A stretch of DNA of 61,891 nucleotides from an uncultured Bacteroidota bacterium (GTDB taxonomy: Bacteria; Bacteroidota; Bacteroidia; AKYH767-A; JABDAW01): NCBI GenBank assembly GCA_903844645.1, contig CAIMUP010000037.1, positions 1 through 61,891 on the forward strand, written 5' to 3'. Shown here one piece after another: positions 16,714 to 57,351 of the stretch. Both the position numbers and the translations under genes were made by a program. Within the stretch, counting starts at the first letter, position 1. Each line of letters opens with the position of its first letter. Under the pieces are notes generated by a model. It did not search any database. It saw only the letters and a program-made list of their open reading frames with translations, and was not told the DNA's origin.

Positions 16714-17060
16714 TTACGTACTGCTCCAAATGTCTATATTTGGAATAGTCCGAAAGTACGTTCCATTCCAAATGTTGACATTTGGTATGGTCCGAAAGTA
16801 CATTCCATACCAAATGTCTCCATTTGGAATAGTACGAAAGTACGTTCTACTCCAAATGTTGACATTTGGTATGGTACGAAAGTACGTTCCATTCCAAATG
16901 TCGACATTTGGAATAGTCCGAAAGTACGTTCTGCTCCAAATGTCAACATTTGGAATAGTCCGAAAGTACGTTCTGCTCCAAATGTCTAGATTTGGAATGG
17001 TACGAAAGTACGTTCTGCTCCAAATGTCTATATTTGGAATGGTACGAAAGTACGTACTAT
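16714..17060. repeat. Array 4: eight 42-bp units with palindromic core
   Basis: This lies in the 705-base divergent gap between the transglycosylase and the desaturase. Each 42-base unit consists of GTACGTTC-type sequence, the palindrome CCAAATG-N4-CATTTGG, and TAGTCCGAAA or TGGTACGAAA. The four central bases vary (TTGA, TCGA, TCAA, CTAGA/CTATA types). TTGA at 16776 and TCAA at 16944 are reverse complements, so the centre occurs in both orientations. GTACGAAAGTAC at unit junctions gives a second dyad. The 42-base period equals two 21-base steps. The remainder of the gap (16519-16713, 17061-17152) shows nothing else. Confidence 0.95.
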
Positions 17061-38389: not shown

Positions 38390-39268
38390 ATGAAGGTCGC
38401 TATTTACAGCCGTATTACCAGCCCCGAACCCGATCCCTTCTTCGAGAAGGTGTTGATGATATTAGAGAACATCGGTGCCGATATTTTTATTCATAAACCG
38501 TTGAATGATTTTATCGTGCCCTCTCTTTTGAATAATACGGTGTATAAAACCTTCCACGATCATACCGATTTGAAGGGCAATGTGGACTTCCTTTTCTCCA
38601 TCGGTGGCGACGGAACGCTGCTCGATACGTTGGACTTTGTAAGGGATACAGGAATACCCATTGTCGGTATCAATACCGGGCGATTGGGCTTTCTCGCAGG
38701 CGTGCATAAAGACAATATTATGGCTGCCATCGAGAGTTTGGACAAAGGGCATTACTCTCTGGATAAAAGGGCATTGCTGCGGCTCGAAACTTCTATTGAT
38801 TTATTCGGCAAAGTGAACTACGGGCTGAACGAATTGACGATACATAAAGCCGAAACATCGTCCATGATGAGCATCCATACCTACCTGAACGGCGAGTACC
38901 TCAATACTTACTGGGCTGATGGCTTAATTATCGCTACTCCCACCGGATCTACGGGGTATTCATTAAGCTGTGGCGGACCCATCATGATGCCGCAATCCGA
39001 GAACTTCGTCATCACGCCGATTGCGCCACATAACCTTAATGTAAGACCTATCGTGGTGTCTGACAAGAGCGTCATAACCCTTGAATTAGAAGGACGGAGC
39101 CAGTATTTTATGGCATCGCTCGATTCTCGTTCGGTAACGATTCCCTCCACCGTACAATTGGCGGTGCGGAAGGAAACATTTTGCATTAATTTGATACGGA
39201 TAAACAACGATAACTTCCTGAAAACAATCCGAGAGAAGCTGTCGTGGGGCAAAGACTCGAGGAATTAG
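38390..39268 (+). CDS. nadK: NAD kinase
   Basis: A 292-residue ATP-NAD kinase. The catalytic GGDGT motif is at 72-76 (FSIGGDGTLLDTL), with GINTGRLGFLAG near 94-105 and PTGSTGYSLSCGGPIM near 184-199. It phosphorylates NAD to NADP in the cytosol. The stop overlaps the stop of the convergent SPOR gene by four bases. Confidence 0.95.
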   Translation: MKVAIYSRITSPEPDPFFEKVLMILENIGADIFIHKPLNDFIVPSLLNNTVYKTFHDHTDLKGNVDFLFSIGGDGTLLDTLDFVRDTGIPIVGINTGRLGFLAGVHKDNIMAAIESLDKGHYSLDKRALLRLETSIDLFGKVNYGLNELTIHKAETSSMMSIHTYLNGEYLNTYWADGLIIATPTGSTGYSLSCGGPIMMPQSENFVITPIAPHNLNVRPIVVSDKSVITLELEGRSQYFMASLDSRSVTIPSTVQLAVRKETFCINLIRINNDNFLKTIREKLSWGKDSRN

Positions 39269-47751: not shown

Positions 47752-48864
47752 ATGAAATCGCTAACAAAAATTATCTTCACAGTTCTCACGGCTCTATGTA
47801 TCAATGTTAATGGAGCAGCCATTTATTCTGGTGCTGATGGAGAATGGAGCGGTGTACGATCGCACATTTGGTCTTCTAATGCCTCGGGTTCGCCCCTATG
47901 TGTCGGGGTTACCTGTTCTCCTACTTGCAATTTCTCTGGTATAGCGAACATCAAAAACAAAGTTACCGATACGGCATGTAGCGGGACCTTGACCATCTCT
48001 GGTTGAGGTGCTGTAAACCTCACCGGAGCTACCAGCCGCTTCACCGTAATAGGGAATTTAGTGGTTACAGGGGGCAGCACCATGTTGATTCCGGCAAGCG
48101 ATACACTGTATGTTACGGGAAATCTTACCGTCAGTTCGGCATCCACCATCACTGTTAATGGTTATATCAAGGTAACGGGCAATGTTACTACCAGTGGTAG
48201 TTCGAGCGTTTGTGGCAGTGGTGGCGGCATTTATCTTGGAAGTCTTACAGGTCCTTCAGGTACGCCGGGCTGGTGTTTTGCACCGGTTACTGTTCCTATT
48301 CAATTGATCAGTTTTGATGCCTCGTATATCGCTGCCGAAAATTCTGTGAAGGCGAATTGGGTAACCGCATCGGAGGTTAATAACAATTACTTCACCTTAG
48401 AGCGAGCTCTGGATGGTAATTCTTTTGAACCTGTCGGCAAGATTAATGGAGCGGGTAACAGCAATGCTTTTAAGGAGTATTCTTTTATTGATCCGAGTCC
48501 TATCAAAGGAATTTCGTACTACCGTTTAGTTCAAACCGATAATGATGGTACGAATACCGTTTATGCCCGTGTACCCGTCGAGGTTACGGATGCTACGATG
48601 GGGTCGAACTTTATTATCTTCCCGAATCCTGCTCAAAACAATGTGGTTTATATTACCATTACCGGGGAGAAAACCGGAGAGAAGGTGGTGTTTATTGTCA
48701 AGGATTTGATGGGTAGAATTATCCAGCAAGAGACCTTTGAAGTGAACCACAAGGGTGCTACGGTTTATCAATTAAATACCGAAAAAAGAATCGGCAAGGG
48801 TGTTTATTTCATCACTGGTTTTGTGAATAACAAAGTCAGTACCCAACGGCTTATTGTTAATTAA
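47752..48864 (+). pseudogene. T9SS-sorted surface protein gene interrupted by an in-frame TGA
   Basis: From the ATG at 47752 a signal peptide (about 1-21) and a repeat-like beta domain are read to TGA at 48004-48006. The same frame then continues without another stop to 48864. The continuation matches: before the stop CSGTLTISG, after it GAVNLTGATSRFTVIGNLVV, one continuous beta-solenoid pattern. The tail includes PIQLISFDASY, VKANWVTASEVNNNYF (a domain that precedes sorting tags) and a T9SS type A tail from FPNPAQNN to QRLIVN. The single TGA replaces what would most simply be TGG or a similar codon. It may be a real nonsense mutation, a sequencing error or recoding. Confidence 0.75.
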
Positions 48865-50220: not shown

Positions 50221-50268
50221 CACAAAAGTCCGGTAGGGACTGAATTATGCAAGATGTCTATTGAAAAC

Positions 50269-50583
50269 AGCGGGATAAATGTCGCTGGCAGCGGGATAAA
50301 TATCGTTCCCAGCGGGATAAATATGGCTGGCAGCGGGATAAATATCGTTCCCAGCGGGATAAATATCGTTGGCAGCGGCATAAATATCGTTGATTGGCGG
50401 GTTTTTCGAGGAGGTTTCCGTGGTCGGGGCAGAAGTTTCCATGTTATGCCTGATGGCAGCCATGTTTTGGTCAAAGGCTTCCATGTTTTCATCAAAGGTT
50501 TCCATGCGTTGGTCAAAGGTTTCCATGTTTTTATCGTTCCCAGCCATGTTTTTATCGGTGATTGGCGGGATTTTCGGGGCATT
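50269..50583. repeat. Array 13: fifteen 21-bp units of two families in one phase
   Basis: Exactly 315 bases upstream of ctaB. Units 1-6 (50269-50394) read AGCGGGATAAATATCG with ends TTCCC, TTGGC or TGGC. Units 7-8 are different (TGGCGGGTTTTTCG, then TTCCGTGGTCGGGG). Units 9-14 read TTCCATGTTTTCATC or AGCCATGTTTTGGTC with ends AAAGGT, AAGGC or GTTCCC. Unit 15 repeats TGGCGGGATTTTCG. No unit breaks the 21-base register, although the sequence families are unrelated. Arms GATA/TATC (first family) and ATG/CAT (second) are visible. Confidence 0.95.
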
Positions 50584-50701
50584 AAATAGGAGTTTTCAGG
50601 CTCTGTATTTGATATTTTAGACGGGGAATGGGGTTTTCGAGTAATGGAGTCGGTGAAATAACATAAGTCGTGTAGGGAGGAACTTTTAAAATAATAACCC
50701 A

Positions 50702-50801: not shown

Positions 50802-51728
50802 ATGCAAGTCCTGAAACTCCCAATGATAGCTAATAAAGAAGCCGAAAGCCAAGCCCTCGAGATAGAAGCCACATCATCCAAGATGAAAGACTATGTCCAG
50901 CTCATCAAATTCCGCCTCTCCTTCCTCGTCGTCTTCTCCGCTACCGCCATGTTCCTTTTAGGCACCACCGGACCTATAGATTGGATGAAATTAACGATGC
51001 TCGTATTAGGAGGATTCATGGTCACAGGCTCCTCCAACGCCTTCAATCAAATCATCGAAAAAGATCTCGACAAACTAATGACCCGCACCCAGAAACGCCC
51101 CCTCCCCGACAACCGGATGGACGTCCCCGAAGCAATGATTTTTTCCTTAATAATGGGCATAGTCGGCGTTTTCCTCCTCACTTATTTTATCAACATCCTT
51201 TGCGGCATATTAGGGTTAATTGCATTGCTATCCTACACCTTAATTTATACCCCGCTCAAGAAACACACACCCTTCGCCGTCTTCGTCGGAGCCTTCCCCG
51301 GAGCCATCCCCCCAATGCTCGGATACGTTGCCGCCACCGGCAAGTTAGACATGATCGCCTTCGTTGTTTTCGCCATCCAATTCATCTGGCAATTCCCACA
51401 CTTCTGGGCTATCGCCTGGGTATTGGATGATGATTACAAAAAGGCAGGCTTCAAAATGCTTCCATCCCCAGGTGGCAGAAATAAAGCATCCGCATTTCAA
51501 GCATTAGTATATACCATTAGTTTAATACCATTGAGCCTATTGCCCTTCTTCTTCAATATCACAGGCAGCATCTCCTCCATCGTGATTATCGCGGCAGGAG
51601 TTTTCTTTATGCTGAAGGCAATCAAACTCTATCAAACCCTCACCATCGAAGCAGCACGAGCCTTAATGTTTGCATCCTTCATCTACCTCCCCGTGGTGCA
51701 GATAGCCATGTTCCTGGATAAGGTATAA
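50802..51728 (+). CDS. ctaB: Protoheme IX farnesyltransferase (heme O synthase)
   Basis: A 308-residue UbiA-family prenyltransferase with about nine membrane helices. NAFNQIIEKDLDKLMTRT (79-96) is the first prenyl-diphosphate Asp motif and the second Asp-rich region lies near residue 205 (DDDYKKAGFKMLP). It converts haem B to haem O for the cytochrome oxidase encoded next. A TATTTTCG sequence precedes the ATG by about eight bases and could be a promoter. The upstream subunits I and II are not in this window. Confidence 0.94.
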   Translation: MQVLKLPMIANKEAESQALEIEATSSKMKDYVQLIKFRLSFLVVFSATAMFLLGTTGPIDWMKLTMLVLGGFMVTGSSNAFNQIIEKDLDKLMTRTQKRPLPDNRMDVPEAMIFSLIMGIVGVFLLTYFINILCGILGLIALLSYTLIYTPLKKHTPFAVFVGAFPGAIPPMLGYVAATGKLDMIAFVVFAIQFIWQFPHFWAIAWVLDDDYKKAGFKMLPSPGGRNKASAFQALVYTISLIPLSLLPFFFNITGSISSIVIIAAGVFFMLKAIKLYQTLTIEAARALMFASFIYLPVVQIAMFLDKV

Positions 51729-54645: not shown

Positions 54646-55170
54646 TTAATGGTAGAAGATAAGATCGTAAGTATGGAATTCTCCTCCGGGAATACCGCAA
54701 TCAGTTGGGGAAGCCATTGAACCAAACTCTCCATAATCAATTGTGCCATTCGCTGGAATCTTAAGATGAGTTAAAACCGAAAAGCCTACTACGCTATATA
54801 GCCTAATATCGGTAACACAGTCTATGTCCTTATTAATTAAATTCTGAATTGTTAAAAAAAACTGGCAAGAGTCGGTGCCGCAGGTTGGATAATTATACTT
54901 GACATGGTAAGTCGTTAAAAAACCCCTCGCGACATTCTGCATATAGTACATACTGCCAGAATTATAATCGAATAAAAAAATGGAAGCCGTGTCGCACTTC
55001 GTGATTGTTGTTTTGCAATACATACAGGTCCCATCATCCTTATCGGCAATGGTGCTATAATTAATCGCAGCTTTGTCGGTGCATCCCTCCTGCTTGCAAC
55101 TATTGGAAATAATGGTGATTAGGGATATTAGTAAAATTAGGAGAATGGAAGGAATGGTAGGGTGCTTCAT
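54646..55170 (-). CDS. DDGSC-motif lipoprotein, paralog 1
   Basis: A 174-residue lipoprotein with lipobox cysteine 25 in SNSCKQEG. Right after it comes GCTDKAAINYSTIADKDDGT, then CMYC, a Bacteroidota motif seen beside calcium- or metal-binding surface domains. The body is beta-rich with paired cysteines (CGTDSC) and ends CGIPGGEFHTYDLIFYH. It is the most downstream of five tandem paralogs (54646-57351). Probably outer-membrane anchored; function unknown. Confidence 0.8.
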   Translation of the reverse strand: MKHPTIPSILLILLISLITIISNSCKQEGCTDKAAINYSTIADKDDGTCMYCKTTITKCDTASIFLFDYNSGSMYYMQNVARGFLTTYHVKYNYPTCGTDSCQFFLTIQNLINKDIDCVTDIRLYSVVGFSVLTHLKIPANGTIDYGEFGSMASPTDCGIPGGEFHTYDLIFYH

Positions 55171-55191
55171 GGTATTTAATTAAATAATTGT

Positions 55192-55716
55192 TTAACGGTA
55201 AGCAATGTATCCTACAAGGCTATAATTTGCGTAAGGTTGGCTAATATACAACCTACCTTGACGAGCGAATAGCCCATTAATAATAGTGAACCCATGGGGA
55301 GGAATATTAATATTGTAAATAGTGGTATCCATGGTCGGGTTAGTTATAGTAAATACTCCGTTAAACACGATAGTCTCGCTTTCAAGGTTTTTTAATTTCA
55401 AATTAGTGATACACGATTCTGTATCGCATAATGCGCTATTATGAGTTACTAAGTAATTGATAAATGTCAATTCGACAACAAGATGCCCATAATGTGGGCT
55501 GGTGGGATTGAAATCTTTTAAAAGCCCCTGTACCGAGTCTCCTTTGGTCAGATTCTCCTTGGAATACACACAAGTCCCATCATCCGCATCCGCAGCGATG
55601 TTATAATTCAAGGCACTCTTATCCGTGCATCCCCCTTGCTTACACCCGATGGAGCAAACGATAGTCAGCGATGTGAGTAAAATCAGGAAAACGGAAGGAA
55701 GGATGGTAGGCTTCAT
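55192..55716 (-). CDS. DDGSC-motif lipoprotein, paralog 2
   Basis: 174 residues. Lipobox cysteine 25 (SIGCKQGG) and GCTDKSALNYNIAADADDGT follow as in its siblings, but the CxYC pair is CVYS and the C-terminal CGIP motif is missing (GRLYISQPYANY). The body is the most diverged of the five. The signal peptide is nearly identical to that of paralog 3, at DNA level too. A 21-base gap separates it from paralog 1. Confidence 0.8.
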   Translation of the reverse strand: MKPTILPSVFLILLTSLTIVCSIGCKQGGCTDKSALNYNIAADADDGTCVYSKENLTKGDSVQGLLKDFNPTSPHYGHLVVELTFINYLVTHNSALCDTESCITNLKLKNLESETIVFNGVFTITNPTMDTTIYNINIPPHGFTIINGLFARQGRLYISQPYANYSLVGYIAYR

Positions 55717-55737
55717 GGTAATTAATTTAATGAATGT

Positions 55738-56262
55738 TTAATGGTAAAGAATCGTTCCGAAGGGATAAATATTTCCTTGCGGAATGCCGCAACTCCCTGT
55801 CGAGGCGATGGCATTGATTTCACCATAATCCCGAACTCTTAAAGGCGGAATATAAATATGCTTCCTTCCACTGTAAGAGATGGGGCTATAGACGTTCATC
55901 TGGCAATCAAACTCTATCGTCTGATTCACTAAATTAAACCATTCCATAAACACCTGGCAGGAGTCTGACCCACACGTCTTATAATTATAATGAACCGAGT
56001 AATTGGTCAGCAGTACCCGCGCCACTTGCTGCCCATAGTAGGGACTTTGATTGTTCGTTTCGCCAATAAAGAACGAAGCCGTGTCCCCCTTCACGATGGT
56101 TGTTTGGCAATACTCGCAACTGCCATCGTCCTTATCGGCAGTAACATCGTAATTCAGCGCATGGGCATCGGTGCATCCCTTCTGTCGGCAGCCGATGGAG
56201 CAAACGATAGTTAGCGACGTGAGTAAAATCAGGAAAACGGAAGGAAGGATAGTAGGCTTCAT
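55738..56262 (-). CDS. DDGSC-motif lipoprotein, paralog 3
   Basis: 174 residues. Lipobox cysteine 25 in SIGCRQKG, GCTDAHALNYDVTADKDDGS and CEYC. The body includes CGSDSCQVFMEWFNLVNQTI and ends SCGIPQGNIYPFGTILYH, closest to paralog 1. The first 120 bases are nearly the same as in paralogs 2 and 4, while the rest differs, which suggests sequence exchange at the 5' end. Confidence 0.8.
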   Translation of the reverse strand: MKPTILPSVFLILLTSLTIVCSIGCRQKGCTDAHALNYDVTADKDDGSCEYCQTTIVKGDTASFFIGETNNQSPYYGQQVARVLLTNYSVHYNYKTCGSDSCQVFMEWFNLVNQTIEFDCQMNVYSPISYSGRKHIYIPPLRVRDYGEINAIASTGSCGIPQGNIYPFGTILYH

Positions 56263-56283
56263 GGTATTTAATTTAATTATTGG

Positions 56284-56805
56284 TTAATAGTAAAGGAATT
56301 GCCCCTCTAAATAAATAATTGCATGAGGGATTCCGCAACTGGTGATGGTTGGATTCGATACCATTACGCCTAAATCAACAGATTGATAGGGTGGAATATT
56401 AATATGATAATGCATGGTATCTAAAGCTGGAGATAAATATTGGATATTATAAGAAAAACAAGTTGTCCAATTCACTAAATTCTGGATTGTCAACATAGTC
56501 TTACACGAATCTGTTCCACATCGTTTGCTATTATAGTTTGTGGAGTAATTAGTGAAAGTATATTTAATAACATCAACCATATATTGCCCACCGACTGAAT
56601 TGTTGTCTTTCATTGTTACAGAAAAGCTATCGCCCTTTGCAATCGTTGTCTTGCAATACAGGCAACTGCCATCGTCCTTATCGGCAGTGTTGCTATAATT
56701 AATAGCAGCCTTATCCGTGCATCCCCCCTGCTTACAGCCGATGGAGCAAACGATAGTTAGCGACGTGAGTAAAATCAGGAAAACGGAAACTTTGGTAGTT
56801 AGCAT
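56284..56805 (-). CDS. DDGSC-motif lipoprotein, paralog 4
   Basis: 173 residues. It has a different first eight residues (MLTTKVSV) but the same signal core, cysteine 24 in SIGCKQGG, GCTDKAAINYSNTADKDDGS and CLYC. CGTDSCKTMLTIQNLVNW and SCGIPHAIIYLEGQFLYY link it to paralogs 1 and 3. It is preceded by paralog 5 with a 15-base gap. Confidence 0.8.
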   Translation of the reverse strand: MLTTKVSVFLILLTSLTIVCSIGCKQGGCTDKAAINYSNTADKDDGSCLYCKTTIAKGDSFSVTMKDNNSVGGQYMVDVIKYTFTNYSTNYNSKRCGTDSCKTMLTIQNLVNWTTCFSYNIQYLSPALDTMHYHINIPPYQSVDLGVMVSNPTITSCGIPHAIIYLEGQFLYY

Positions 56806-56820
56806 CGTGGTAACTTTTAA

Positions 56821-57351
56821 TTATTTATAAGTAATGGTTCCTATCATCCCCATACTTACTGATGGCGGACCGCAAGCCGTAGTCGAGGGGGTGGAAAAAA
56901 GTATGCCGAGGTTCAGACTGTCGCCAGGCGGTACCGAGATATTGGTAATGGTGGTGCTTCTGCCACTGGGGGTCATCGTGAATTTCCCACTGAAGGTAAC
57001 AGTCTTATTAATCAGATTATACACCATCGCCGAAATCGTACAATGGGTGCTGCCACATTGGGCACTGTTGTACTTTACGAAGGCAGAGTAGAACTGCACC
57101 GCGAAAGGATAATGATTCCAGAAAGGATTCGTACCACTGGCATAGTTGCCATCGCGAACTTCATCGTAAACAGAATCCACCATCACCACGGTCGGCGTAC
57201 AATAGATACAGCTCCCATCGTCCTTATCGGCAATGTTGCTATAATTAATAGCAGCCTTATCCGTGCATCCCCCTTGCTTGCAGCCGTTAGAAAGAATCAT
57301 AGTAAGGGATATTAATAAAATCGCAACGGCAGAAGAAAGAGTGATGGACAT
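56821..57351 (-). CDS. DDGSC-motif lipoprotein, paralog 5
   Basis: 176 residues and the first gene of the five. Lipobox cysteine 24 in SNGCKQGG, GCTDKAAINYSNIADKDDGS and CIYC. The body has CGSTHCTISAMVYNLINKTV and ends TACGPPSVSMGMIGTITYK, a variant of the CGIP end. DUF4907 lies 19 bases upstream, so the whole set may be one transcript starting there. Confidence 0.8.
   Translation of the reverse strand: MSITLSSAVAILLISLTMILSNGCKQGGCTDKAAINYSNIADKDDGSCIYCTPTVVMVDSVYDEVRDGNYASGTNPFWNHYPFAVQFYSAFVKYNSAQCGSTHCTISAMVYNLINKTVTFSGKFTMTPSGRSTTITNISVPPGDSLNLGILFSTPSTTACGPPSVSMGMIGTITYK

Follow-up and report, generated by a model that had tools for sequence, protein, structure and literature searches.

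How can a tandem array change its sequence midway without losing its step? The question is raised by array 13, which lies in a 61,891-nt stretch of DNA from an uncultured Bacteroidota bacterium (the whole stretch is called the window below). In the original prediction, two unrelated repeat families had been joined here in a single 21-bp register, either by selection on spacing itself or by a copying event that respects the register. The analysis described here leads to a somewhat different picture. The explanation that we hold to be probable, with moderate confidence, is that array 13 is a non-coding pair of anchored blocks, that both blocks belong to one dispersed 21-bp family and were joined in register, and that the preference of the genus for periods that are multiples of 21 (21n) is a separate constraint.

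The anatomy of array 13

The array runs from 50269 to 50583 (315 bp) and consists of fifteen units in steps of 21 bases. This part of the original prediction was borne out when the proposed autocorrelation check was run: at lags of 21, 42 and 63 the 315 bp match themselves in fractions of 0.67, 0.63 and 0.53, respectively. Two sub-arrays are reported by TRF, at 50268-50392 and 50457-50548, both with periods of 21/42. The arrangement is block A followed by an anchor, then block B followed by an anchor (Table 1). The linkers of block A alternate between GCTGGC and GTTCCC, which creates a 42-bp sub-period.

Table 1. Features of array 13 and its surroundings (window coordinates).
Feature	Position	Strand	Basis or remark
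Left flank TCTATTGAAAAC	50257..50268	+	common to C85 paralogue
Block A, units 1-6: AGC-GGGATAAATATC-linker	50269..50394	+	TRF, lag match, unit comparison
13-mer TATCGTTCCCAGC in block A	50301..50313, again 50343-50355	+	in phase with block B copy
Anchor unit 1 (unit 7), within (GAT)TGGCGGGTTTTTCG	50395..50415	+	unit and paralogue comparison
Unit 8, diverged B-like	50416..50436	+	13/21 to unit 12
Block B, units 9-14: (TTC/AGC)CATGTTTTNATC-linker	50437..50562	+	TRF, lag match, unit comparison
TATCGTTCCCAGC in units 13/14	50532..50544	+	231 bp (11 x 21) from units 2/3 copy
Anchor unit 2 (unit 15), TGGCGGGATTTTCGGGGCATT	50563..50583	+	168 bp after anchor 1, 16/21 identical
Right flank (TTTTCAGGCTCTGTATTTGATATTTTAGACGGGG...)	50593..50641	+	common to C85, about 87% over 85-bp match including anchor
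Putative protoheme IX farnesyltransferase (ctaB)-like gene, downstream of array 13	50802..51728	+	named by sequence and position ahead of cytochrome oxidase-type genes

Over two truly unrelated 21-bp arrays it is always possible to lay one 21-step grid. What gives the register of array 13 its meaning is that the phase is set by shared pieces. The 13-mer TATCGTTCCCAGC is found twice in block A (units 2/3 and 4/5) and, in the same phase, once in units 13/14. In addition, units 1-6 and the rest have 24 pairs of 7-mers in common, 19 of them at exact multiples of 21 and the other five off by one. The two families thus do have sequence in common, contrary to the original prediction. Nor are units 7, 8 and 15 of other types, as had been thought. 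Units 7 and 15 are mutual copies (16/21 identical) and represent one terminal "anchor" unit type. Unit 8 belongs with the B units but has diverged, matching units 11 and 12 at 12-13 of 21 positions.

The gene downstream appears to be ctaB-like, to judge from its sequence and the gene order. Its ortholog in the relative designated G001 is 81% identical and has no TRF 21-bp array upstream. Upstream of array 13 is an ORF (48061-48864, plus strand) whose product has a C-terminal sorting domain of the Por secretion system (Pfam PF18962).

What if the array encodes something? Since a heptad takes 21 bp of coding sequence, the arrays could specify seven-residue repeats, such as METFDQR on the minus strand. 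There is indeed an open minus-strand frame of 100 codons that passes a crude codon-usage gene caller, and open frames are slightly above those of shuffles (3.14 against 2.4-2.6). However, the variation has no three-base periodicity (3/117 arrays at p<0.05), the same frame is interrupted by stops in the paralogues at C142 and C2, its start codon falls within the array and there is no Pfam match. A heptad-repeat protein gene is therefore rejected as very improbable. A structured RNA or known RNA element deserves equally little credence. Across the genome, array units are rich in inverted repeats (stems of at least 6 bp in 23/135 units where about 6 are expected, and in 8/32 where about 2 are expected in G001; 16715-17059 of the window is an example), but the fold energy of array 13 is ordinary on both strands (z of 0.23 and -0.38) and no Rfam match is found in the window.

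Several other candidates were discarded. Phased A-tracts were rejected since A/T power shows no excess at 21 or 10.5 bp, and a minor-groove reading, in which a pattern of A/T versus G/C would be conserved, since the substitution types are ordinary. The sequence CTGCGCCAC bounds the whole stretch at C2 in inverted orientation, like the ends of a small mobile element, and also occurs near some other array loci. A mobile element with these ends was nevertheless rejected as the cause: approximate matches number 41 against 22 for a reversed-pattern control, and the window has no good match. A Y1 transposase is represented in the genome by one partial domain, which is fewer than in several relatives. 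A CRISPR array was rejected because the 21-mers abut directly without spacers and a PF01867 search of the organism's own genome found no Cas1 homologue. The Cas1 and Y1 results are also all that was found on a candidate enzyme for duplication.

Paralogous loci and the probable joining of two blocks

Nine loci in the genome follow one design, in which core-linker units in 21-bp steps are followed by the anchor GATTGGCGG. Besides the window these are C85, C106, C142, C98, C2, C96, C54 and C42. At the paralogues the units mostly start with AGC and the last one ends in ...GAT, with the anchor TGGCGGC after it; at C42 units start with AGT or TTT. (Two further anchor matches, at C123 and C117, have one mismatch each, and that at C123 has no surrounding array and was taken as chance.) The family was not found in 40 relatives, G001-G003 included.

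The cores of these loci form a gradient that starts at GGGATAAATATC (A), passes by way of GGGGTAAATATC, GGGGTTTTTATC and CACATTTTTATC and ends at CATGTTTTTATC (B). At C2 and C96, B-like cores stand alone, with this anchor. It is thus unnecessary to postulate that two unrelated families were joined, as the A and B cores are the ends of a graded series within one family. The change from A to B would have come about by divergence inside the family, because intermediates occur in paralogues. The series itself is observed, and its direction and history are presumed.

The anchor is present once per locus, except in the window, which has two copies 168 bp apart. Both window anchors read TGGCGGG, whereas the other eight loci have TGGCGGC. 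By this shared ending the two window anchors are probably each other's copy. The nearest paralogue, C85, has the same left flank, A units that are 97% identical over 158 bp and a right flank that is 87% identical over 85 bp. It contains block A, the anchor and the right flank in the same register and lacks only block B. In other words, the window exceeds C85 by a single anchored block, which measures exactly 168 bp (8 x 21) and is bounded by homologous anchors. The original prediction called for a check on whether size changes are always multiples of 21, and this difference agrees with it, with a paralogue in place of a strain. Its alternative of a copying event that respects the register likewise fits array 13.

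Was the block inserted in the window or deleted between anchors in C85? The G shared by the window anchors speaks for local duplication on the window side. A copying event (unequal recombination, template switching or gene conversion) probably joined the two blocks. It would have aligned on the shared segments, that is the anchor and TATCGTTCCCAGC, and thereby kept the register.

Two other observations concern the anchor loci. At C54:7150-7370 (L008) a B-like sub-array (GCATGGAAATCTTTGATGTTC) has an orientation opposite to the anchor when compared with the window, which suggests a sub-array inversion. An extended flank, GATAATTTATTCCCTGTACTCCCCCACA, is shared beside the anchor at C2 (L006), C142 (L004) and C42 (L161).

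The 21-bp step across the genome and genus

Array 13 is one of many. TRF finds 146 arrays in 540 kb of this 3.84-Mb genome, and the period is a multiple of 21 in 140 of them; this sample is slightly enriched by eight paralogue stretches (L039-L046) picked for carrying the family. In 372 kb picked regardless of arrays the proportion is 88/93, at 23.7 arrays per 100 kb and 4.3% of bases. Extrapolation from about 24 per 100 kb gives an array count of about 900 per genome. Periods beyond 21 are 42, 63, 84 and 126, and in nearly every array of the window the unit sequence is distinct. The arrays are mostly intergenic between genes of any orientation, and about 8 of the 140 21n arrays lie inside longer gene calls, made with a simple codon-usage script on draft, metagenome-type assemblies.

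The same is true of the genus but not of its surroundings. Arrays of a sister species have 21n periods in 35 of 39 cases, and the array density in two other species of the genus is 15.5 and 12.9 per 100 kb, against 0.8 in a sister genus, 0.9-1.0 in other members of the order and 0.5 in other Bacteroidota (862 kb). Among named relatives the nearest is uncultured Bacteroidetes Umea1_bin-0439, a metagenome bin. The gene at 38390 is preceded by 21-bp arrays whose units are unrelated, AACATATGTTATAGCAACAAT here and AACTTCGATGTAAGCACCAAG in G001, and no TRF array was found upstream of the G002 counterpart. Hundreds of arrays of equal length and differing sequence suggest that the length is fixed by something besides sequence likeness.

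A multiple of 21 also appears in a set of genes. At 54646-57351 (minus strand) there are five tandem ORFs of 173-176 aa, and three of their start-to-start steps are exactly 546 bp (26 x 21). Two of the five were compared with Pfam and gave no match. Contig C5 of G002 matches this region several times at shifted positions, as expected if the tandem gene set is present there too.

Can the constant length be a consequence of homology? One clue comes from 29 arrays (22 in this genome and 7 in G001) with a period of exactly 42 and no 21-bp sub-period. Their 21-nt halves are unrelated, with an identity of 0.274 at lag 21 compared with about 0.25 at other lags, and the G002 sample adds three further period-42 arrays. 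Homology alone therefore does not explain the length. Repeated words with both copies outside arrays lie at 0 mod 21 in 17% (7-mers) to 48% (12-13-mers) of cases, and in 34-48% for words of 9-14 nt, where 4.8% is expected. Intergenic DNA outside arrays has a residual lag-21 similarity of 0.305 versus 0.27. When neighbouring sub-arrays that differ in consensus are compared, the best likeness falls at zero shift in 10/16 pairs, where about 0.8 is expected. Substitutions between units look neutral-like, with 48.5% transitions and no conserved A/T versus G/C class.

What fixes the length, and what is known elsewhere

A near-universal 21n period in the genus would reflect a separate constraint, deeper than the event that may have built array 13. 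One proposal is historical: an old 21-bp family decayed and reseeded later arrays by ordinary slippage, after which homology-driven copying always proceeded at 21n. It accounts for the lag-21 similarity outside arrays and for the likeness in register of adjoining different arrays, and array 13 itself is fully explained by it. However, it does not easily explain the whole genome pattern. The halves of the 42-bp arrays are unrelated, outside arrays, seed words sit on multiples of 21 in only 34-48% of cases compared with 96% for arrays, and similar 20-21-nt arrays have been published from distant phyla (PMC8161180). We regard this history as an unlikely account, although some of the pattern could stem from older 21-bp arrays, given the residual lag-21 similarity. 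As inherited register and homology do not readily cover the genome-wide pattern, it calls for either selection on spacing or duplication in steps of fixed length.

Selection on spacing is rated no higher than the historical account. A protein that forms polymers on DNA, or that binds at every second helical turn, would favour 21-bp steps regardless of sequence, and 21 bp is two turns of B-DNA. Moreover, length stays constant while sequence changes in three species of the genus, and the intergenic region upstream of the gene at 38390 holds arrays of a different unit in relatives. Subirana and Messeguer propose likewise for similar arrays (PMC8161180). The difficulty is that no word occurs in most arrays (the top 4-mer, GGGA, is in 43/135 units where 21.7 are expected), that A/T bases are not phased at either 21 or 10.5 bp, that the substitution spectrum is neutral-like and that a sequence-blind protein does not need tandem copies. 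Because change is neutral-like and there is no common word, length-fixed duplication is favoured over selection.

We infer that the most likely basis of the constraint is a duplication process whose step is built in and measures about two helical turns, its main rivals being selection through a DNA-binding protein and an inherited register. In its full form, the proposal is that duplication in the genus uses a 21-bp ruler on any sequence and makes or reshapes the roughly 900 intergenic arrays of each genome, array 13 being a composite product. This remains tentative, short of an even chance, and the length step is deduced from end products. A process that is mutational only would also need purifying selection to account for the intergenic bias of the arrays. 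As for the original prediction that the spacing itself is constrained, the constraint stands genome-wide, on evidence outside array 13 (the 140/146 arrays at 21n, the unrelated 42-bp halves and the outside-array words at 21n); that selection is responsible does not separate from length-fixed duplication.

How do these arrays compare with known systems? In eukaryotic satellite DNA, higher-order repeats arise when blocks of diverged monomers are copied in register. The block copying is alike, but here the arrays are very short, are found at hundreds of intergenic sites and belong to a bacterium. Plasmid iterons are direct repeats of about 20-22 bp with two-helical-turn spacing, and they are similar in size and spacing, whereas here there are hundreds of arrays with unrelated sequences. 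Borg elements carry many intergenic and genic tandem arrays with fast turnover and independent origins (PMC9879509). Those properties are shared; however, the units of Borgs are perfect and rich in A and vary in length, and the units here are imperfect and of fixed length.

The closest match is the class of bacterial 20-21-nt arrays with constant length and variable sequence described by Subirana and Messeguer (2021; PMC8161180) and in their earlier survey. Their arrays are mostly non-coding and species-specific, with little kept between relatives; the 20-21 nt are equated with two helical turns, and a few related 40-41-nt arrays are mentioned. The arrays of this genus likewise have one repeat length and many unrelated units and are species-specific and non-coding. 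They differ in being exactly 21 bp, with 42, 63, 84 and 126, in occurring in Bacteroidota and in including 42-bp arrays of unrelated halves and composite arrays in one register. The density is also different, at about 24 per 100 kb compared with 29 arrays listed for the 4.36-Mb genome of B. weihaiensis, with detection programs that differ (PMC8161180). Finally, in some species, such as B. weihaiensis, most repeats contain a common short word, whereas none of the enriched 4-6-mers is present in most units here. Literature searches on 21-bp arrays in Bacteroidota turned up nothing specific.

The genus is thus an extreme example of a constant-length, variable-sequence class already known in bacteria. 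It carries many more arrays of this kind than the Bacillus examples in the literature, and the unrelated halves of its 42-bp arrays are an argument for a length that is fixed independently of sequence likeness.
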